A DNA stretch of 32,721 nt, from contig PFPU01000025.1 of NCBI GenBank assembly GCA_002793215.1, positions 1 to 32,721 of the forward strand, written 5' to 3'. Source of the stretch: Flavobacteriales bacterium CG_4_10_14_0_2_um_filter_35_18 (GTDB lineage: Bacteria; Bacteroidota; Bacteroidia; Flavobacteriales; Flavobacteriaceae). A program made the position numbers and the translations under genes. Shown here piece by piece: positions 1-23,359 of the stretch; position 1 is the stretch's first letter, and every line of letters starts with the position of its first letter. The notes under the pieces are model-generated. The model made no database searches. It was not told the DNA's origin and saw only the letters and a list, made by a program, of their open reading frames with translations.

Positions 1-102
1 TTCAACAAAATCGAATGCTTCTAAAACTTAATTATATTACATTTGAACATCAGAAAATTTCGATTTCAAACCCGCAACTTTTCATAGCCTAAACCGTTGG
101 CA
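1..102 (+). repeat. Cassette-junction repeat, family 1 (left part cut by window)
   Basis: This segment closely matches the repeat at 2644-2775 over about 100 bases. The shared blocks include AAAACTTAATTATATTAC and CAACTTTTCATAGCCTAAAC. It ends in CCGTTGGCA at 94-102, 14 bases before the start codon of the first gene. Its beginning, expected to carry TGCCAAC, lies outside the window. The repeat belongs to the 3' end of a preceding cassette that is not visible. Confidence 0.75.
38..45 (+). promoter_or_regulatory. Possible -7 box inside the junction repeat
   Basis: TACATTTG fits the Bacteroidota -7 consensus TAnnTTTG and lies about 70 bases before the start codon of the 117-791 gene. No convincing -33 TTG at about 19 bases upstream is visible. 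The equivalent position in the family-1 copy at 2644-2775 is degenerate. It is only a candidate for a promoter carried by the repeat. Confidence 0.25.
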
Positions 103-116
103 AAAAGCAGAAAAAA

Positions 117-791
117 ATGAGTGACGACAAAAAAAAGAACCAAATAGATGTTTTTAAGTCAGTAAAGTCAGAGGCTTTAAATGAATTAACACCTGAAATC
201 TTGGAAACTGGTTTTGATTTACTTATTGAATCAGAAGTATTAAAAGAAATACCAGTATTTGGTATTGGATTTAAAAGCTTTAGTCTTTATAACAAAATAA
301 CGGAATCTTTTTTCACGAAAAAGCTGCTTAGATTTCTGTTTGAATTAAAGGATATTCCTCAATCTAAAAGAGAGGAATTTATTACGGAATTGGAATCTAA
401 AAATGAAACAAAGAAAGCTGGAGAAAAATTGCTAATAACTTTGAACAGATTAAATGACGATGACAAAGCATCAATTATCGGAAAACTATTAAAAAAAACA
501 ATTTTAGGTAATATTACTTTCAATGATTTTAAAAGATTAACTCATATAATTGACAATACTTATTTGGAAGATTTGGAATTGCTGAAAGACAATGAGTATT
601 TACGAAACATTAATGATGACATAAAGACAAATCTTCATCAGATTGGACTGTTAAATCGATCAATTAAAGATAATAGAGAACACGAAGAATATAAATTTAA
701 AAAAACAGGAAGAAGAGAGATAATTCCTGCTACATTTGAATATAAACTAAATTCTTACGGCAGAATTTTAATCGAAAATGGATTTGACTAA
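117..791 (+). CDS. Unrecognised cassette-borne protein, 224 aa
   Basis: I do not recognise a named family. The protein is soluble-looking, rich in Lys and Glu, with no signal peptide. Residues about 30-75 form a mildly hydrophobic stretch with an IPVFGIGF segment and then a helix with KKLLRFLFELKDI. A region near 95-150 looks helical (KLLITLNRL, IIGKLLKK). The C-terminal 50 residues are charged. The architecture of a short hydrophobic N-terminal patch followed by helices recalls small accessory proteins that recur in mobile regions of bacterial genomes, but a function cannot be assigned. The start at 117 is the first ATG after the repeat end at 102. The stop is followed 17 bases later by the next repeat, so this is a single-gene cassette. 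Defence or phage exclusion is possible only by association with its neighbours. Confidence 0.6.
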   Translation: MSDDKKKNQIDVFKSVKSEALNELTPEILETGFDLLIESEVLKEIPVFGIGFKSFSLYNKITESFFTKKLLRFLFELKDIPQSKREEFITELESKNETKKAGEKLLITLNRLNDDDKASIIGKLLKKTILGNITFNDFKRLTHIIDNTYLEDLELLKDNEYLRNINDDIKTNLHQIGLLNRSIKDNREHEEYKFKKTGRREIIPATFEYKLNSYGRILIENGFD

Positions 792-808
792 TATTATAAA
801 ATGACAGT

Positions 809-938
809 TGCCAACACCTTATAAAATTTATTCTTACATTTGAACTAGAACAACCAATAAACATTCAATAAAAATAGAGCCAAGGCGGAAAAATCTCCGA
901 TTTTTACGTCGCACAAATCTTATAAAATCACGTTGGCA
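809..938 (+). repeat. Cassette-junction repeat, family 2 (130 bp)
   Basis: The element runs from TGCCAAC (809-815) to GTTGGCA (932-938), so its ends are perfect 7-bp inverted repeats. The subterminal bases are also partly complementary (TTATAAAAT near both ends). Near the right end there is an internal dyad of AAAAATC and GATTTTT around TCC, followed by ACGTCGCACAAATCTTATAAAA. That right-hand block is nearly identical in the copy at 1886-2016. TACATTTG at 835-842 resembles a -7 box. The element could fold as a long imperfect hairpin when single-stranded, as attC sites do. Confidence 0.8.
835..842 (+). promoter_or_regulatory. Possible -7 box inside the junction repeat
   Basis: TACATTTG matches TAnnTTTG, about 125 bases before the start of the DUF5655-type gene at 969. 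A TTG lies at 808-810, at a spacing of 24, which is longer than usual. The same octamer occurs in the repeat at 1-102, which is why it is listed, but transcription from it is speculative. Confidence 0.2.
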
Positions 939-968
939 TTCATTACGACAAAAAAAATCAACTAAATA

Positions 969-1880
969 ATGGCATTATATAAAATAGAAAAAGATTTAGA
1001 ATACATTAAAGAGAAACCTTTTAAACTTGAAAAAGAAATTCAAGATTTAACAGAACATAATCTAAAAACAGTTTTAGGACTTAATTTTGTAAAATCTGAG
1101 TTTGCTATGAATAATTTCAGAATTGACACTTTGGCTTTTGACAAAGAGGCGAATGCTTTTGTGATTATAGAGTATAAAAGAGATAAAAATTTTAGTGTTA
1201 TTGACCAAGGTTATGCTTATTTATCTTTAATGTTAAACAACAAAGCCGACTTTATTTTAGAATTCAACGAAAATCTTGACAAAACTTTGAAACGGAACGA
1301 CGTTGATTGGTCACAGTCAAGAGTTTTATTCATTTCACCTTCGTTTACAAACTATCAGAGAGAAGCTATTAACTTCAAGGATTTACCAATTGAACTTTGG
1401 GAAATAAAAAGATTTGAAAATAATACAGTTTCATTCGAACAAATTCAAAAAGCTGGCGCTCAAGAAAGTATTAAAACAATTTCCAAAACTGACAACACAA
1501 TCGACAATGTTGCAAAAGAAATTAAAGTTTACACCGAACAAGAACATTTAGATAATGCTTCAGAAGAGATTAAAGAACTCTATGAAAAATTGAAAAATGG
1601 AATTTTAAATCTCGACAATTTAGAGGTTAAGCCAAAGAAAAAATATATTGCTTTTATGTCTGGAAGAAACGTAATTGACATTCATCCACAAAAAAAATCA
1701 TTGAAAATGTGGATAAATATGAACAAGGGAGAACTTGAAGACACAAAAGGTTTGACAAGAGATGTCTCGTCAACTGGACACTGGGGAAATGGAGAATATG
1801 AATTACAAATTGACTCTGATGACAATTTAGAATATATTTTGAGCCTTGTAAAACAGTCGATTAAAAAGAATAAAAAGTAA
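969..1880 (+). CDS. PD-(D/E)XK nuclease-like protein with C-terminal DUF5655-type domain
   Basis: The 303-aa protein has two parts. Residues about 1-165 show a PD-(D/E)XK-type arrangement: Glu23 in an N-terminal helix, Asp53 in FRIDTLAFD, then VIIEYKR with Glu68 and Lys70, and Gln80 in a following helix. That is the order D...ExK...Q seen in restriction-endonuclease folds. Residues about 185-303 resemble DUF5655 (LYEKLKNGIL, IAFMSGRNVIDIHP, LKMWINMN, and a C-terminal region ending in a Lys-rich tail). Proteins of this architecture are common in accessory regions and are presumed DNA-binding or DNA-cleaving, but the substrate is not known. There is no signal peptide. The gene stands alone in its cassette, 31 bases after one repeat and 6 bases before the next. 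A defence role is inferred from fold and context. Confidence 0.75.
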   Translation: MALYKIEKDLEYIKEKPFKLEKEIQDLTEHNLKTVLGLNFVKSEFAMNNFRIDTLAFDKEANAFVIIEYKRDKNFSVIDQGYAYLSLMLNNKADFILEFNENLDKTLKRNDVDWSQSRVLFISPSFTNYQREAINFKDLPIELWEIKRFENNTVSFEQIQKAGAQESIKTISKTDNTIDNVAKEIKVYTEQEHLDNASEEIKELYEKLKNGILNLDNLEVKPKKKYIAFMSGRNVIDIHPQKKSLKMWINMNKGELEDTKGLTRDVSSTGHWGNGEYELQIDSDDNLEYILSLVKQSIKKNKK

Positions 1881-1885
1881 CGAAA

Positions 1886-2016
1886 TGCCAACACTGTATA
1901 TAATTTATGCTCAAATCGGAACTAGTACAAACCGACAAACATTCAATAAAAATAGGGCTACGGCGGTAAAATCTCCGATTTTTACGTCGCACAAATCTTA
2001 TAAAAACTCGCTAGCA
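1886..2016 (+). repeat. Cassette-junction repeat, family 2 (131 bp)
   Basis: It begins TGCCAAC at 1886, six bases after the preceding stop codon, and ends GCTAGCA at 2010-2016 where the sister copy has GTTGGCA. It matches the 809-938 copy strongly in the second half (AACATTCAATAAAAATAG, then ATCTCCGATTTTTACGTCGC), and at the left end. The central part from about 1909 to 1930 has diverged. A dyad of GCGGTAAAATC with GATTTTTACGTCGC could form a stem. A 63-codon open frame through this repeat is not a gene. Confidence 0.8.
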
Positions 2017-2058
2017 ACCATACGGAAAATTCAAACTACTAATATTTTTTTTTCAAAT

Positions 2059-2085
2059 GATGTAATTTTGGTGTAAATTTACATC
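2059..2085 (+). promoter_or_regulatory. Operator/promoter of the ParD-ParE operon
   Basis: An inverted repeat with 11-base arms (GATGTAATTTT and AAATTTACATC, one mismatch) around a 5-base centre lies 14 bases before the antitoxin start. The left arm contains TAATTTTG (2063-2070), a full match to the Bacteroidota -7 box TAnnTTTG. A dyad overlapping the promoter just upstream of a ribbon-helix-helix antitoxin is the expected layout for autorepression. The binding itself is inferred. Confidence 0.6.
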
Positions 2086-2099
2086 AAAAAACAAAAATT

Positions 2100-2339
2100 A
2101 TGGCAAGACAAAGCATTTCATTCACAAACCCGAATGATGAATGGTTAAAAACTCAAGTTGACAATAAAGAATACTCTAGTAAAAGTGAACTTGTTAATGA
2201 TTTAATTAGACAAGCTAGAAAACAGCATATTCAGATTGACTGGATTAGAACTAAAATTGAACAAGCGGAAAATAGCGGATTTACTGATGACCATAAAGAT
2301 CAAATATTAAAACAATCAAAGTCTTTACTTAATGGCTAA
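2100..2339 (+). CDS. ParD/CopG-like ribbon-helix-helix antitoxin
   Basis: This 79-aa protein begins MARQSISFTNPNDEWL, the short N-terminal strand of a ribbon-helix-helix DNA-binding domain. Two helices follow, with a YSSKSELVNDLIRQARK motif at about residues 24-40, as in ParD-family antitoxins. The C-terminal 35 residues are charged and probably wrap the toxin. The stop overlaps the toxin start by 8 bases, so the pair is translationally coupled. It should neutralise ParE and, as a dimer, repress the operon through the dyad at 2059-2085. Length and order (antitoxin first) are normal for the family. The pair forms the third cassette of the array. Confidence 0.85.
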   Translation: MARQSISFTNPNDEWLKTQVDNKEYSSKSELVNDLIRQARKQHIQIDWIRTKIEQAENSGFTDDHKDQILKQSKSLLNG

Positions 2340-2619
2340 ATATAAGTTAAGTAATGCCGCTAAAGAAGATTTAATACGGATTCATCATTACGGAGTAAAA
2401 AAATTTGGAATTGTCCTCGCTGACAAATACTTTGATTCATTTTTTGAATACTTTGAGATTATTGCTCAACGACCTTTATCATTCGAGTCGGTTGATTTTA
2501 TAAAAAAAGGATATAGACGCTGTGTATGCGGATCTGATAGTATTTATTACAAAATAAATAATGACATTGTTGAAATAATGACAATAATTGGAAGGCAAGA
2601 TTTAAACAATATATTTTAA
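2332..2619 (+). CDS. ParE/RelE-family toxin
   Basis: The 95-aa protein has the ParE/RelE pattern: an N-terminal AAKEDLIRIHHYGVKKFG helix, a second helix near residues 28-45, then RPLSFESVDFIKKGYRRCVCGSDSIYYKI and a final strand with VEIMTIIGRQDLNNIF. The Arg near the end, in GRQD, and the GYRR turn are typical of the family. ParE members poison DNA gyrase and RelE members cleave mRNA in the ribosome. The DLIRIHHYG helix and ParD partner favour ParE, but the target is inferred. The gene looks intact. It overlaps the antitoxin by 8 bases and is followed after 24 bases by the next junction repeat. Confidence 0.85.
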   Translation: MAKYKLSNAAKEDLIRIHHYGVKKFGIVLADKYFDSFFEYFEIIAQRPLSFESVDFIKKGYRRCVCGSDSIYYKINNDIVEIMTIIGRQDLNNIF

Positions 2620-2643
2620 CCTTCTGAATTTTTAAAGTACAGT

Positions 2644-2775
2644 TGCCAACAACGCACCTAAAAAATTGCTCAATTCAACTAAATAGAATGCTTTTAAAAC
2701 TTAATTATATTACATCTTAACATCGAAAAATTGCGTTTTAAAACCCACAACTTTTCATAGCCTAAACCGTTGTGA
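2644..2775 (+). repeat. Cassette-junction repeat, family 1 (132 bp)
   Basis: It starts with TGCCAAC 24 bases after the toxin stop and ends with CCGTTGTGA, where the copy at 1-102 has CCGTTGGCA. Over the right-hand 100 bases it is a close relative of that copy, with long identical blocks such as CAACTTTTCATAGCCTAAAC. Apart from the end heptamer it has little similarity to the family-2 repeats at 809 and 1886. The array thus alternates at least two repeat types. Confidence 0.8.
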
Positions 2776-2824
2776 TTCATACCGACAATGATTTTTATTT
2801 TTCAATTATAATCCGATTTTTTTG

Positions 2825-2832
2825 TAACTTTG
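2825..2832 (+). promoter_or_regulatory. -7 box of the decayed toxin-antitoxin operon
   Basis: TAACTTTG is a full match to TAnnTTTG and lies 20 bases before the ATG of the antitoxin remnant at 2852. The promoter may still be active even though the genes are broken. Confidence 0.4.
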
Positions 2833-2851
2833 AATTTAATCTATTATAGAT

Positions 2852-3070
2852 ATGGCTATTCGAACTTCTAAGATAGCGTTGGTAAAAATGATTCTTAACA
2901 TTGAGAATGACAAATTCATTGAAAAAATCACAGAATTTGTTCAAAAGGAAAAAGTTGATTTTTAGAATGAGCTGAGTTTATCTGAGCAAAAAGAAATTGA
3001 AAAAGGTATTAAACAACTGAATAAAGGAAAAAGAGATGAGTTTAAAGACTTTTTGAAAAAGATTTCTTAA
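2852..3070 (+). pseudogene. Antitoxin remnant with in-frame stop
   Basis: From the ATG at 2852 the frame reads 37 codons, meets TAG at 2963-2965, then continues in the same frame for 35 codons to TAA at 3068-3070. The two halves together look like the small Bacteroidota antitoxins that accompany RelE/ParE toxins: an N-terminal helix (IEKITEFVQKEK) and a C-terminal LSEQKEIEKGIKQLNKGKR segment that probably contacts the toxin. A single base change would restore a 72-aa protein. Stop-codon reassignment or readthrough is unlikely, because the partner gene next to it is also broken. Confidence 0.75.
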
Positions 3071-3303
3071 CGAAAGTGTTTTTAACAAAATTAGCTGAAA
3101 ATAAACTTTTAAAATTGACCAGATTTCTAAACAACCTGAAAATTGTTTAAAATCCACAGAGTTTTAAGGACTTTTTTAAATGTGTTGTAACAAAACAGAC
3201 AACTTTCAATTACAGAATAAACTTTGACAGAAAAGAAATTGAGGTTTTCACAGTTTTTGACACAAGACAAAATCCGGGCAAATTAGAAAAAGACATAAAA
3301 TTA
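3070..3303 (+). pseudogene. RelE/ParE-type toxin remnant (deletion and frameshifts)
   Basis: Immediately after the antitoxin remnant the frame reads KVFLTKLAENKLLKL, a typical toxin N-terminus, but the first codon is ACG, not ATG, and a TAA interrupts it at 3148-3150. A neighbouring frame carries QISKQPENC, the usual middle of such toxins, at about 3122-3145. The C-terminal part is again readable from about 3180 (CVVTKQTTFNYRIN, then VFDTRQNPGKLEKDI). About 20 residues expected between the N-terminal helix and the QISKQPE motif are missing. The gene therefore has a lost start codon, an internal deletion and frame changes, and cannot make a toxin. Confidence 0.75.
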
Positions 3304-3310
3304 GTACTTT

Positions 3311-3350
3311 TGCCAACTTCGTATATAATTTATACACAAATTTGAACTAA
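3311..3350 (+). repeat. Truncated family-2 junction repeat at the array end
   Basis: TGCCAAC at 3311-3317 is followed by GTATATAATTTAT and CAAATTTGAACTA, matching the first 40 bases of the copy at 1886 and, more loosely, that at 809. After about 3350 the similarity stops and no right-hand GTTGGCA is seen. It marks the last cassette boundary before conserved chromosomal DNA. Confidence 0.6.
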
Positions 3351-3417
3351 CAGAAACTGAGTATGTTCAAAATTTTGTGTTTTTGAAAAATAACTTTAAA
3401 ATCTCTAATTTGGCCTT

Positions 3418-3906
3418 ATGAAAGCGGTAACTATTAAAGCACTTAAAACGGAATTGTCAAATTGCTCACCTAACGAACTCTTTAAAATATGTTTGTGTTT
3501 AACAAAGTTTAAAAAAGAAAATAAAGAACTCCTCTCCTATCTGTTATTCCAATCAGCTGATGAAGAAGGCTTTATTAACGATTTAAAAACGGAAATTGAT
3601 TTTCAGTTTACTCAAATCAACTCTAAAAATTATTATTTTATCAAAAAAAGTGTTCGTAAAATCCTTCGGTATGTCAAGTCAAACATACGTTACTCAAAAA
3701 ACAAAGAAACCGAAATTGAACTATTGCTTTACTTTTGCGCCGTACTCAAAAACTCAAAGCCTTCAATCGACCAAAACCTTGTGCTTAAAAATATTTTTAT
3801 TCGCGAAATTGCTGGCATCAAAAAAAAAGTAGCTGTTTTGCACGAAGATTTACAATACGATTACAAATTAGAACTTGATAAGCTGCTTAGCGCTGATAAA
3901 GTTTGA
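3418..3906 (+). CDS. Conserved hypothetical protein, 162 aa
   Basis: This is a soluble, Lys- and Leu-rich, helical protein without signal peptide or membrane segment. It begins MKAVTIKALKTELSNCSPNEL and has a central KENKELLSYLLFQSADEEGFI segment, then KNYYFIKKSVRKILRYVKSNIRYSKNKETE split over residues about 75-105. I associate this pattern with a small protein widely present in Flavobacteriaceae, but no function is known to me. The Arg/Lys-rich middle could bind nucleic acid; this is a guess. It is the first gene after the cassette array and its codon use looks like the rest of the core region. The stop is at 3904-3906, 67 bases before the lipoprotein gene. Confidence 0.75.
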   Translation: MKAVTIKALKTELSNCSPNELFKICLCLTKFKKENKELLSYLLFQSADEEGFINDLKTEIDFQFTQINSKNYYFIKKSVRKILRYVKSNIRYSKNKETEIELLLYFCAVLKNSKPSIDQNLVLKNIFIREIAGIKKKVAVLHEDLQYDYKLELDKLLSADKV

Positions 3907-3973
3907 GAAAAAGCTTTTAAGATAACTATTCGACATAATTTTTATTAATTTTATACATTATTTTAAATAAGCA

Positions 3974-4363
3974 ATGACCATGAAAAACACCATCTTACTT
4001 TTAGCCGGTTTCTTGTTGATTTCAAGTAGTTGTACCGTTGATGATGCAGCGCTAAAAATGCAAGAGCAACAACAACTCGATGTTTTGTATCAAGCATTAA
4101 TAAACATAGCTGGCAGCGTGCCCTGTACCAATTCACAAAATTGGGCTTTTACGGCAGTTGGCGCTAAGGCTTGTGGCGGTCCTATTAGTTATTTGGCTTA
4201 TCCGCTCAGTATTGATACCACAAGTTTTTTAAATAAAGTGGCTCATTTTACTGCTGAACAAGAAAAGTTTAATATTAAATGGCAAATTAGTTCAGATTGC
4301 ATGATTTTGCAACCCCCTACTGGTGTTGAATGCGTTGATAATAAGCCAACTTTTATTTACTGA
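3974..4363 (+). CDS. Small predicted lipoprotein, 129 aa
   Basis: The N-terminus MTMKNTILLLAGFLLISSSC is a type II signal peptide with the lipid-anchored cysteine at residue 20. A second ATG two codons downstream (3980) is an equally good start. The mature protein starts CTVDD; the early acidic residues would fit an outer-surface lipoprotein export signal of Bacteroidota, although the match is loose. After a Gln-rich helix there are four cysteines, in VPCTN, KACGG, SDCM and VECV, which could form two disulfides in the periplasm or on the surface. No named domain is recognised. The gene is followed by convergent copD-like DNA, with a weak hairpin region between them. Confidence 0.7.
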   Translation: MTMKNTILLLAGFLLISSSCTVDDAALKMQEQQQLDVLYQALINIAGSVPCTNSQNWAFTAVGAKACGGPISYLAYPLSIDTTSFLNKVAHFTAEQEKFNIKWQISSDCMILQPPTGVECVDNKPTFIY

Positions 4364-4407
4364 TAAAAGGGTGCTTTTAATTTTATCTCGGTTCCAGCCG
4401 TTTTTTT
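4361..4407 (+). terminator. Weak candidate terminator between convergent genes
   Basis: GATAAAA (4362-4368) and TTTTATC (4381-4387) can pair. Directly after this, CGGT and GCCG around TCCA (4389-4400) form a short stem followed by seven T residues. Both stems are weak, so this is a tentative call. Confidence 0.35.
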
Positions 4408-4482
4408 ATTTCTATAAAATATTTTTATACAAGTCTTGCTAAAGCTTACTTTGGTGTCAATTTTTATAGGCTACTTGGCTTT

Positions 4483-4917
4483 TTAAACGCCTCCAAATCG
4501 TATAGAAACACCTAGATAAAGCATACAAATTCCGATAAGTGTTACCGCAATAATATGTAAACCAAGCCACCACAAATTTTTAGGCGTTAATTTTGGAAAA
4601 ACAAAAAACCGCACATTAATGGCGAGTAAAATTGTAGCGAGCAATAAAATTAATTTTGTGCCTACCGCCTGGGCAATGGCACTTGAATAGTCTATAAAAT
4701 TTACCTGATAAAAAGTAATCGCCATCCAAACACCCGTAATTACTTGGATTATCAAAGCCGGAAATCCAATGATTTCAAATTTTTTCTCGAAGGCTTTTAT
4801 AAGCTCCAAATTTTTGTCGCGCAAAGCTTCTGGTAAATAGCGCAAGGCAAGCAATAAATGACCGCCTACCCAAATGGTGGCTCCTATTACATGTATGATA
4901 ATTAGCCATTTAAACAT
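4483..4917 (-). CDS. CopD-like integral membrane protein
   Basis: The 144-aa protein consists of four predicted membrane helices (about residues 3-23, 48-70, 86-108 and 117-137). The first carries HVIGATIWVGGH with His9 and His20, and the last contains His121. This pattern belongs to the CopD/YjhB-like group of small haem- or copper-associated membrane proteins; paired helix histidines suggest haem or metal binding. In Bacteroidota, members are often found near respiratory or nitrosative-stress genes, but no such neighbour is seen here. The gene is alone on the - strand, with an 18-bp palindrome 44 bases upstream of its start. The precise substrate is unknown, so the name CopD family is a fold-level assignment. 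Confidence 0.75.
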   Translation of the reverse strand: MFKWLIIIHVIGATIWVGGHLLLALRYLPEALRDKNLELIKAFEKKFEIIGFPALIIQVITGVWMAITFYQVNFIDYSSAIAQAVGTKLILLLATILLAINVRFFVFPKLTPKNLWWLGLHIIAVTLIGICMLYLGVSIRFGGV

Positions 4918-4960
4918 AACTTATTTTTTATTTTTTTACTTATAACCGTTAGTTTTAATT

Positions 4961-4978
4961 AAAGATAAATTTATCTTT
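4961..4978. promoter_or_regulatory. Perfect 18-bp palindrome upstream of copD-like gene
   Basis: AAAGATAAATTTATCTTT is a perfect palindrome in the region between the divergent copD-like and DUF4199 genes. It is 44 bases from the former start and 147 bases from the latter, so it more probably serves the copD-like gene. The AAAGAT-N6-ATCTTT form resembles operators of dimeric regulators such as the Rrf2/NsrR group. The regulator is not identifiable from this window. Confidence 0.4.
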
Positions 4979-5095
4979 TAAGTCATCAAATGTAAGGTTA
5001 TTTTTTATAGACTGTTTTATTAATTTAAAAAGAAAACAGCTGTGCTATGAAGCAATTTTTGTTTTAAAAACAAGCTTTAAATAAGCATAATTATT

Positions 5096-21814: not shown

Positions 21815-23359
21815 ATGGCAATTTTAGAGGAAGATAAATTCAAAAAAGTCATTGCCCATGCCAAAGAGTATGGCTATGTTTTTCCGTCAAGTGAAATATA
21901 CGACGGATTAAGTGCCGTTTATGATTACGGTCAAAATGGTGTAGAATTAAAGAAAAATATCCGCGACTATTGGTGGCAGGCCATGGTGCAAATGAATGAA
22001 AATATTGTGGGTTTAGATGCCGCCATATTTATGCATCCAACCACCTGGAAAGCCTCGGGGCATGTCGATGCTTTCAACGACCCTTTAATTGACAATAAAG
22101 ATTCTAAAAAACGCTATCGTGCCGATGTGTTGATTGAAGATTATGTCGCTAAAATTGAAGATAAAATAGAAAAAGAAGTTTCAAAAGCCGCAAAACGCTT
22201 TGGCGAATCTTTTGATAAAGCTCAGTTTTTGGCTACCAACACCCGCGTCATTGAATACCAAGCCAAAGCAGCTGCTATTTTAAAACGTATGGGGCAATCT
22301 TTAGCAAATGAAGATTTAGCTGATGTTAAAGCACTTATCGAAGAATTAGAAATTGCTTGTCCACTTACAGGTTCTCGAAATTGGACCGAAGTTAAACAAT
22401 TCAACCTTATGTTTGGCACTAAAATAGGCGCTTCGGCAGAGAATTCGGTTGATTTATATTTGCGTCCAGAAACCGCTCAAGGAATTTTTGTTAATTTTTT
22501 GAATGTACAAAAATCGGGGCGAATGAAAATCCCTTTTGGCATCGCTCAAACTGGAAAAGCCTTTAGAAATGAGATTGTTGCCCGACAATTTATTTTTAGG
22601 ATGCGTGAATTTGAACAAATGGAAATGCAATATTTTGTGCGTCCCGGTGAGGAACTACAATGGTATGAAAGTTGGAAACAACGGCGCTTAAAATGGCATT
22701 TATCACTTGGTTTAGGGGCTGAAAATTACCGCTTTCACAATCATGATAAGTTGGCACATTACGCCAATGCTGCCGCTGACATTGAGTTTAAATTCCCTTT
22801 TGGCTTTAAAGAATTAGAAGGTATTCATTCACGAACCAATTTTGATTTGAGTAGTCATCAAAAATTCTCAGGAAAAAAATTACAGTATTTCGACCCAGAA
22901 CACAACGAAAGCTATGTGCCTTTTGTGGTTGAAACTTCGGTTGGTTTAGACCGCATGTTTTTAGCTGTATTTTCTACTGCTTTGCAAGACGAAACTTTAG
23001 AAGATGGTTCTATGCGAACCGTTTTAAAACTACCGGCCGTTTTAGCACCTATAAAAGCAGCCGTTTTGCCATTGGTTAAAAAAGATGGTTTGCCCGAAAT
23101 TGCCCATAAAATTATAGATACCTTAAAATTCGATTTTAATGTTGTTTATGATGAAAAAGACGCCATTGGTCGCCGATACCGTCGCCAAGATGCTAATGGA
23201 ACCCCTTTTTGCATTACCGTTGACCACGACACTTTGCTTGATAATACCGTAACAATTAGATATCGCGACAGCATGCAACAAGAACGCGTTAAAATTCAAG
23301 ACTTAATAGCACTCATATCTAAGGAAGTTTTGCCTAAGTATTGGCTTGAAAAATGCTAA
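21815..23359 (+). CDS. glyS: Glycyl-tRNA synthetase, single-chain class II type
   Basis: The 514-aa enzyme attaches glycine to tRNA-Gly. It is the archaeal/eukaryotic-like single-chain form: class II catalytic core with MQ-like RPETAQGIFVNF, IAQTGKAFRNEI (motif 2 region) and EMQYFVRPGEE, then GIHSRTNFDLSSH and ETSVGLDRMFLAV (motif 3 region), and a C-terminal anticodon-binding domain from about residue 405 (APIKAAVLPLVKKDGL). Length is normal for the bacterial group. The start at 21815 is 5 bases after the upstream stop, and MAILEEDKFKKVIAHAKEYGYVFP fits the family. A strong terminator follows 14 bases downstream of the stop. Confidence 0.97.
   Translation: MAILEEDKFKKVIAHAKEYGYVFPSSEIYDGLSAVYDYGQNGVELKKNIRDYWWQAMVQMNENIVGLDAAIFMHPTTWKASGHVDAFNDPLIDNKDSKKRYRADVLIEDYVAKIEDKIEKEVSKAAKRFGESFDKAQFLATNTRVIEYQAKAAAILKRMGQSLANEDLADVKALIEELEIACPLTGSRNWTEVKQFNLMFGTKIGASAENSVDLYLRPETAQGIFVNFLNVQKSGRMKIPFGIAQTGKAFRNEIVARQFIFRMREFEQMEMQYFVRPGEELQWYESWKQRRLKWHLSLGLGAENYRFHNHDKLAHYANAAADIEFKFPFGFKELEGIHSRTNFDLSSHQKFSGKKLQYFDPEHNESYVPFVVETSVGLDRMFLAVFSTALQDETLEDGSMRTVLKLPAVLAPIKAAVLPLVKKDGLPEIAHKIIDTLKFDFNVVYDEKDAIGRRYRRQDANGTPFCITVDHDTLLDNTVTIRYRDSMQQERVKIQDLIALISKEVLPKYWLEKC

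Follow-up and report, generated by a model that had tools for sequence, protein, structure and literature searches.

At the left end of the window, the whole stretch of 32,721 nucleotides analysed here, two long copies of one repeat each stand behind a gene, and the question is what these copies are and what might read them. The earlier note on this DNA had proposed that a protein reads the right half of the repeat and its ends. The window is contig C193 of a metagenome-assembled genome (MAG) of 2.5 Mb, in 203 contigs and 90% complete. On the sequence comparisons given below, the repeats are very probably attC-type sites in an integron-like array of cassettes on the chromosome.

Repeats and genes alternate in the window and on a second contig

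We found that both copies, at 809-938 and 1886-2016, are real (85% identical, E 2.9e-35) and that the central dyad GGAAAAATCTCCGATTTTTAC is present, as had been described. Positions 1-3350 hold four attC-like sites (1-99, 812-935, 1889-2013 and 2647-2772) and a truncated fifth at the right end, all on the + strand, as are the genes between them. The site at 1-99 (covariance model R1, cmsearch E 5.4e-07) belongs to sequence family 1, has lost its left part to the contig end and pairs as a repeat with 2674-2772 at 89% identity. It is followed by a cassette gene taken from the ORF list (117-791), whose 224-aa product has no Pfam match at E <= 0.01, and by the site at 809-938, with its YAAC..GTTR core at 812-935 (R1 75.1 bits, E 5.2e-15). 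Then come a gene at 969-1880 for a 303-aa protein with a DUF5655 domain (PF18899, 6.6e-14), the N-terminal half of which is weakly nuclease-like (PF13588 and PF01939 match only below cut-off), and the site at 1886-2016, with its core at 1889-2013 (R1 71.2 bits, E 4.3e-14) and its right core decayed to GCTA. These two main sites belong to the alignment from which R1 was trained. The site at 2647-2772 is of the second sequence family (family 1; R1 44.7 bits, E 1e-07) and lies outside that alignment, and both it and the site at 1-99 are absent from the training set. Ahead of 2647-2772 are genes for a ParD-like antitoxin (2100-2339; PF03693 22.2 bits, cut-off 21) and a ParE-like toxin (2332-2619; PF05016 40 bits, cut-off 23). 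This toxin-antitoxin pair (2100-2619) serves as one cassette, and toxin-antitoxin cassettes are a type that stabilises large integron arrays.

A third copy had been described as keeping only the left 40 bases, at 3311-3350. This copy is there as a direct repeat, and its left 50 bases recur, at 3311-3360 with 78% identity to the second copy; it is a truncated site of which only the left arm (3311-3350) is left, at the right-hand end of the array, and it gave no R1 match. A search of Rfam with positions 1-5000 returned zero matches at E <= 1.

A second contig of the same genome, C178, carries eight further copies of the same sequence family (C178:28635-36649) and two sites of other families (L009:10017-10143 and L009:11055-11179; model R1). 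Each C178 site lies 3' of a + strand gene. One extra site was found upstream by the R1 search (21839-21963), and the whole genome has 30 R1 matches at E <= 1, spread over 13 contigs. The sites of this genome were detected with BLAST and with R1, which was itself trained with ten of them. A separate scanner that looks for YAAC, an inner stem and GTTR finds one of the C178 sites and none in the window at its threshold of 22. Scanner and R1 were derived from the same type of site and are hence mutually dependent.

Neighbouring sites share the ends of a cassette

In these arrays one gene, sometimes two, and one site form a cassette, and all cassettes point in the same direction. If cassettes are the unit, matching bases are expected at the beginning and the end of a cassette, and not at the two ends of a single site. 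For each site we therefore took the 8 bases that follow GTT and set them against the reverse complement of the 8 that run up to and include the Y of the next site's YAAC. In 11 arrays from 10 relatives, adjacent pairs had a mean of 6.26 matches out of 8, with at least 6 in 110 of 131 pairs, against a mean of 2.77 for the two ends of the same site (at least 6 in 11 of 146) and 2.63 for non-adjacent ends (at least 6 in 107 of 2389). The maximum reached by 2000 permutations was 3.54. Array G080a has a mean of just 3.86. The C178 array gave, from its attI-like core on, the values 0, 3, 4, 1, 6, 3, 6, 7, 6 and 7. The values for the window were 5, 6, 5 and 2, where 6 belongs to the left flank of 1886-2016 and the last is the pair before the truncated site. 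The array in this genome is thus mostly clean in its later part, unlike its first cassettes and its truncated end. The repeat ends had been read as 7-bp inverted repeats, slightly decayed in the second copy. The letters are as described (TGCCAAC/GTTGGCA and TGCCAAC/GCTAGCA); their interpretation as the two ends of one element did not survive, as they derive from two neighbouring cassettes.

Direction was equally uniform among the relatives. At 30 loci, selected because they had an array or an integrase, the scanner found 236 forward and 2 reverse sites; at two of these loci it found none. When 54 recombinase loci were scanned, forward hits were present downstream of the recombinase in 18 and reverse hits in none; the other 36 had no forward site downstream, many of them with little sequence there.

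The question of which end of the repeat is the breakpoint can be answered from similar cassettes, and the answer is the right end, at G^TT of GTTR. Our sample consisted of 39 blastn matches between array loci (at least 250 bases and at least 80% identity), which are not independent, many being repeated cassettes of one array (G279). In 16 of the 39 the match stopped, at its right end, 0 to +7 bases from G^TT in each partner, compared with 0.7% of random positions. At the left end there was no such sharp limit: 2 of 39 matches fell within 3 bases in both partners, and the test was weak because matches extend into similar neighbouring sites. Cassettes are also common to different genera, for example G279 and Winogradskyella at 84-85%, and a stretch in G069 matches the unfinished last cassette of C178 with 85.7% identity over 434 bases. 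By eye, the cassettes of G015 tend to end with AAAAACnnnnnnYAAC and to start with GTTRnnnnnAATTTGA, a conserved context beyond the core.

The conserved element is a long stem marked on one strand

The scanner sites are 120-129 nt long in 189 of 236 cases, with smaller groups of about 47, 62 and 190 nt. Very short sites, of about 47 and 61 nt, occur in the same kind of array at L085 (G026, ~3924-3969) and L127 (Rufibacter). The single bottom strand of a site can form the YAAC/GTTR pairing, an asymmetric unpaired spacer, a stem of 16-17 bp and a variable terminal part. The fold of an attC site, that is, an R stem, an unpaired central spacer, an L stem and a variable terminal structure as defined in PMC2727003, is thus present in these sites.

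The earlier note had located the divergence in the middle of the repeat and the conservation in the right half around the dyad. We found otherwise: identity between the two window copies is 32/42 in the left third, 36/42 in the middle and 37/41 in the right third, and the best-conserved ten-column blocks among the ten copies of this genome are columns 101-110 (1.00) and 11-20 (0.97). These blocks are the two arms of one long stem and the dyad lies elsewhere; near ATCTCCGAT, it sits in the variable terminal part. Among the genome's own copies, inspection by eye revealed no compensatory change in the dyad, and variant copies weaken it.

Covariation in the stem was strong across genera. We aligned 74 sites, chosen from 246 for length and diversity. 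In this alignment 92.0% of the cells pair, against 71.5 in shuffles, and both sides have changed in 285 cells, against 90.2 in shuffles. The covariation score was 0.517, with 0.159 for shuffles and at most 0.129 for slid versions of the structure, the advantage over slid versions arising in part because the structure was derived from these same sequences. The element that is read would thus be YAAC...GTTR together with the 16-17 bp inner stem. The idea that a protein reads the ends holds up well, as ends and folded stem are very probably read by a recombinase; the restriction to the right half does not, since the stem needs both halves.

We then asked how the pairs of this stem are distributed between strands, using a symmetric, ungapped search for 16 pairs in 234 sites (the ten from this genome and the 224 found by the scanner with a length of 100 nt or more). 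The cells comprised 2941 Watson-Crick pairs, 525 wobbles on the bottom strand, 33 wobbles on the top strand and 245 others. Bottom-strand wobbles outnumbered top-strand wobbles in 215 of the 234 sites, the two were equal in 19, and no site had an excess on the top strand. Two G.T wobbles exactly five pairs apart were found on the bottom strand in the ungapped stem of 146 of 234 sites, including all ten from this genome and with them both window copies. In the commonest register (96 sites) G.T stands at pair 7 in 90 sites and at pair 12 in 93, and of the fourteen other positions ten vary among Watson-Crick pairs and four hardly vary. A minor class of 49 sites, in registers (4,1) and (3,1), has its inner half unpaired when no gap is allowed, and the two G.T pairs occur in only 1 of the 49. 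As judged by eye, a single bulged base on the 5' arm of the bottom strand seems to restore the stem. Extrahelical bases on the R''-L'' arm, which according to PMC2727003 IntI requires for attC x attC recombination, were lacking in 146 of the 234 sites, and the bulge in the 49 lies on the other arm.

The two G.T wobbles become A.C mismatches on the top strand and would probably leave only the bottom strand a good substrate, in which case they probably take over the role that extrahelical bases have in known attC sites. For the site at 809-938, whose stem has two G.T wobbles, we predict the bottom (-) strand to be the active one. Consistent with this strand marking, 57 of 66 non-redundant sites, folded whole, did better as bottom strand than as top strand; for the ten copies of this genome with their flanks this was so in 6 of 10, with a small difference. 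The terminal part, which holds the dyad, has a moderate tendency to form hairpins that is alike on the two strands (mean z -1.72 bottom and -1.68 top; z < -2 in 29/66 and 26/66).

A tyrosine recombinase and an attI-like core stand at the head of the arrays

Immediately ahead of the first site of C178 lies what is left of a tyrosine recombinase, its C-terminal end (in an open frame of 51 aa that matches PF00589 positions 140-171). This remnant is interrupted by a stop and split between frames, and it is followed by an attI-like core, GATATAACCAGTTAGGCAC, that still fits the consensus TATAAC-NN-GTTR, and then by the first site. A second integrase remnant, from another branch, lies at C83:1714-1902 of the same genome (G000) beside sites at 69-194 and 833-958. 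The genome thus holds two decayed integron-like loci.

The best matches of the C178 remnant are recombinases from many genera, most of them full-length, and those that head arrays in relatives are mostly of 345-415 aa. Fifteen of them, called group A, can be aligned and share a conserved catalytic domain. In G015, G025 and G049, genomes that are complete or nearly so, the integrase is followed by the array on the same strand; in G026 the integrase is broken. Recombinases of two further groups (B and C) also precede arrays. A pattern search found the TATAAC-NN-GTTR core 3' of 17 of 21 group-A genes, the misses being L104, L086, L094 and L045, the contig of the last ending inside the core; most group B and C loci showed no core by pattern. 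A looser pattern also matched five unrelated loci (L142, L157, L171, L177 and L179). Draft contigs of G001, G006, G009, G016 and G077 end just 3' of the integrase, probably because arrays break assemblies.

The system may work as follows. A tyrosine recombinase of the Bacteroidota family that heads such arrays would cut the folded bottom strand between G and TT of GTTR, and it would let circular cassettes enter at the attI-like core (TATAAC-NN-GTTR) that directly follows the recombinase gene. The array of this genome is probably frozen, an attC cluster lacking an integrase, because only C-terminal integrase remnants were assembled; with the MAG 90% complete and sites on 13 contigs, a full integrase could be absent from the assembly only.

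The integrases carry an N-terminal extension. A motif in it points to the HARP domain, and we tested this likeness by search. PF07443 (cut-off 25) matches L128, from a Spirochaetota MAG, at 29.6 bits when the N-terminal stretch is searched in isolation. In the set of ten homologues to which L128 belongs, L119 gave 14.3 bits (E 0.03) and eight gave no match; in a set of 40 full-length members 4 matched at E <= 1, the best at 5.7e-6. A PDB sequence search ranked the SMARCAL1 HARP structure 4o66 second, at E 0.27. These matches offer a lead that the N-terminal domain may be HARP-like in a few members. Integrases of 675-718 aa occur in Marinilabiliaceae-type genomes (L136, L138 and L141), and five attC-like sites follow L141.

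The recombinases differ from IntI as it is defined

Our data suggest a system that is integron-like in its predicted working, yet outside the IntI family as currently defined. None of 299 genomes of the family exceeded the 265-bit cut-off of the IntI model TIGR02249. Six group A-C proteins scored 192-211 bits and Algibacter L109 190.8, with the match split or N-terminal, whereas eight IntI references from other phyla scored 373-488 bits in one piece. A profile of the new family likewise matches IntI4 in two stretches. Two catalytic motifs are 57-63 aa apart in 36 of 38 rows (L101-L119, L122-L139 and L141), the spacing being 38 in L127 and no value being obtained for L111, whereas three of the eight IntI references have a spacing of 100 aa; the spacing pattern failed or misread the other five references, L111, L127 and L142, the last giving 100 aa yet being no IntI (197 bits). 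The split match and the motif spacing indicate that the additional domain specific to IntI is absent from the catalytic domain of these integrases. IntI is defined by that domain according to PMC9668308, which cites Messier and Roy (2001).

Structure comparison was done with an AlphaFold model built from alignment A2 (pLDDT 83.7; a single-sequence model had pLDDT 34.6) and covers mainly residues 100-360 of the model. It gave Z 19.4 and an rmsd of 3.6 over 252 residues with IntI4 (2a3v), and Z 22.1 and an rmsd of 8.9 with archaeal XerA (4a8e). In trees, 8 and 7 IntI proteins form their own branch (support 100/100 and 100/99), and 22 Bacteroidota proteins of the new type are placed apart from it. 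AU tests rejected neither one clade of IntI and the new type (p-AU 0.332) nor one clade of the 22 (p-AU 0.596), so that shared ancestry and separate invention both stand.

Sites and integrases are spread through the Bacteroidota

In the family, R1 found sites in 106 of 120 genomes at E <= 0.01; each genus was represented by one genome, this one among them, and no more than 29 candidates were scored in any of them. Across the Bacteroidota, at E <= 1e-4, 63 of 118 genomes had sites. The 14 family genomes with zero R1 sites include G009, despite its full group-A integrase. Carriers of the integrase include Mesonia, Zunongwangia, Flavobacterium, Algibacter, Winogradskyella, Seonamhaeicola, Algoriphagus, Cyclobacterium and Rufibacter. 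Judged by these names and the tree, the family of this genome would be the Flavobacteriaceae. In Mesonia L104 and on a Chryseobacterium oryzae plasmid (L184) the integrase is present, but the 9-10 kb behind it has no R1 site.

Mobile DNA also carries such sites. A plasmid of Chryseobacterium sp. SNU WT5 (L183) has the integrase and four attC-like sites on the array strand; its cassettes hold Crp/Fnr, RidA and other single genes. A Pontibacter plasmid has three weak R1 matches. Polaribacter phage P12002L (L181) has three, at 38879-38936, 39122-39245 and 39515-39710; it is a lytic flavobacterial phage, and its sites flank a methyltransferase gene and small genes. IntI1 is described as recombining one P12002L attC site (PMC9892861), which may or may not be among our three matches; at least one site from within this host range is therefore a substrate for a canonical integrase.

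Outside the phylum our R1 search was confined to eight recombinase loci, and none had a match at E <= 1 (L137, L148, L161, L165, L168, L171, L175 and L177); Endozoicomonas L177 has 2 forward scanner hits downstream, yet no R1 match. Integrases with the N-terminal extension occur in MAGs labelled Undinarchaeales (L119), Firmicutes (L122) and Spirochaetota (L128), for which transfer, mislabelled MAGs or old spread are possible.

Alternative explanations

The repeats could be thought of as MITE-like non-autonomous transposable elements with short terminal inverted repeats that stand behind genes by chance, and the short inverted ends and high identity of copies within one genome fit that picture. 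We give it next to no probability: there is one copy per gene on one array strand (236 forward, 2 reverse), the flanks of a copy complement the previous copy and not its own other end, and many sequence families have one common stem with compensatory changes. Copies in both orientations with inverted ends within one copy were not found. Transcription terminators or RNA processing elements would also follow stop codons, as the sites do, and the moderately hairpin-prone variable part would suit them, but it is the bottom strand, antisense to the genes, that folds better (57/66) and carries the G.T pairs. Such elements would leave the complementarity of cassette ends and the recombinase at the head of the array unexplained, and we consider this account very improbable.

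Two further accounts accept cassettes, and each is improbable, if a little less so. One is an ordinary IntI integron whose attC sites existing tools merely miss. The GTTR/YAAC cores, the G after AAC, the unpaired spacer and the variable terminal part all match known attC sites, IntI1 recombined a Polaribacter phage site (PMC9892861), and L086 passes an NCBI XerA-type model named 'site-specific tyrosine recombinase/integron integrase', a name also borne by a Chryseobacterium plasmid protein of this family. Moreover, a survey of tyrosine recombinases reports that the integron insertion is not fully conserved within its integron-like subgroup (PMC8138268). Against this account are the IntI cut-off, passed by 0 of 299 family genomes, the missing IntI-specific domain, sites mostly without extrahelical bases, and the separate, fully or almost fully supported branch of the IntI rows. 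On the other account the arrays would be inert everywhere in the phylum, relics passed on by descent alone. The remnant integrase genes of this genome, the decayed core of the second window copy and the broken integrase of G026 would agree with it; intact recombinases in many genera, near-identical repeated cassettes that end at the cut point, cassettes common to genera such as G279 and Winogradskyella, and a plasmid-borne array in Chryseobacterium do not. An integron-like cassette array with a recombinase of its own type is the reading that we prefer.

We would go one step beyond it, tentatively and at slightly less than an even call. The Bacteroidota may have a second solution for recombining single-stranded hairpin DNA, consisting of a recombinase without the IntI additional domain, a HARP-like N-terminal domain that would recognise the folded strand, and attC sites marked by two G.T wobbles and not by extrahelical bases. 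It would be present in most genera of the Flavobacteriaceae and would have gone unnoticed, as search tools depend on the IntI domain being there.

Comparison with known systems

The integron habit itself is already known. Bacteroidota are listed among the integron-bearing phyla (PMC8618304), and the IntegronFinder 2.0 survey, in its account of Bacteroidetes proper, names one complete integron (PMC9024848). In the open-licence literature, with preprints outside the scope, we found no description of this integrase type, of wobble-marked sites or of their spread, and no account of integrons across the Flavobacteriaceae. According to published descriptions, an integron depends on an IntI-specific domain for reading the extrahelical bases of attC, and Escudero et al. 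(2016, PMC4792948) present domain and bases as a case of coevolution with a chicken-and-egg paradox. This question would become testable in a widespread cassette system that has no IntI domain and whose sites mostly have no extrahelical bases. Sites in 106 of 120 genera of the family would also imply a large cassette reservoir in the Bacteroidota.

With the sedentary chromosomal integrons of the Vibrio type, which use IntI, these arrays share tandem one-gene co-directional cassettes, GTTR/YAAC cores with a G after AAC, an unpaired spacer and a variable terminal part, an attI-like core, and a tyrosine recombinase at the array head. In contrast, the integrases here are without the IntI additional domain, have an extra N-terminal domain and are read in the direction of the array; two G.T wobbles take the place of extrahelical bases in most sites, and the assembled genome of the window holds integrase remnants only. 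The co-directional integrase has a precedent in Treponema, reported as having integrons with intI (PMC3607928), a likeness that we draw from the description. Like a CALIN, a cluster of attC sites lacking an integrase, the array of this genome consists of sites without a complete integrase; unlike one, it is still headed by a remnant integrase and an attI-like core. A resemblance to the HARP domain of SMARCAL1-type annealing helicases is limited to PF07443 matches in part of the N-terminal domain of a few members; most integrases tested have no PF07443 match and a helicase domain was matched in none. XerA and XerCD, including phage integration by hairpin sites, also lack an IntI-type insertion, and the catalytic core is closest in sequence to archaeal XerA (4a8e, 5hxy). 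To our knowledge, however, Xer systems have no cassette arrays, attI-like core or N-terminal domain of this kind.
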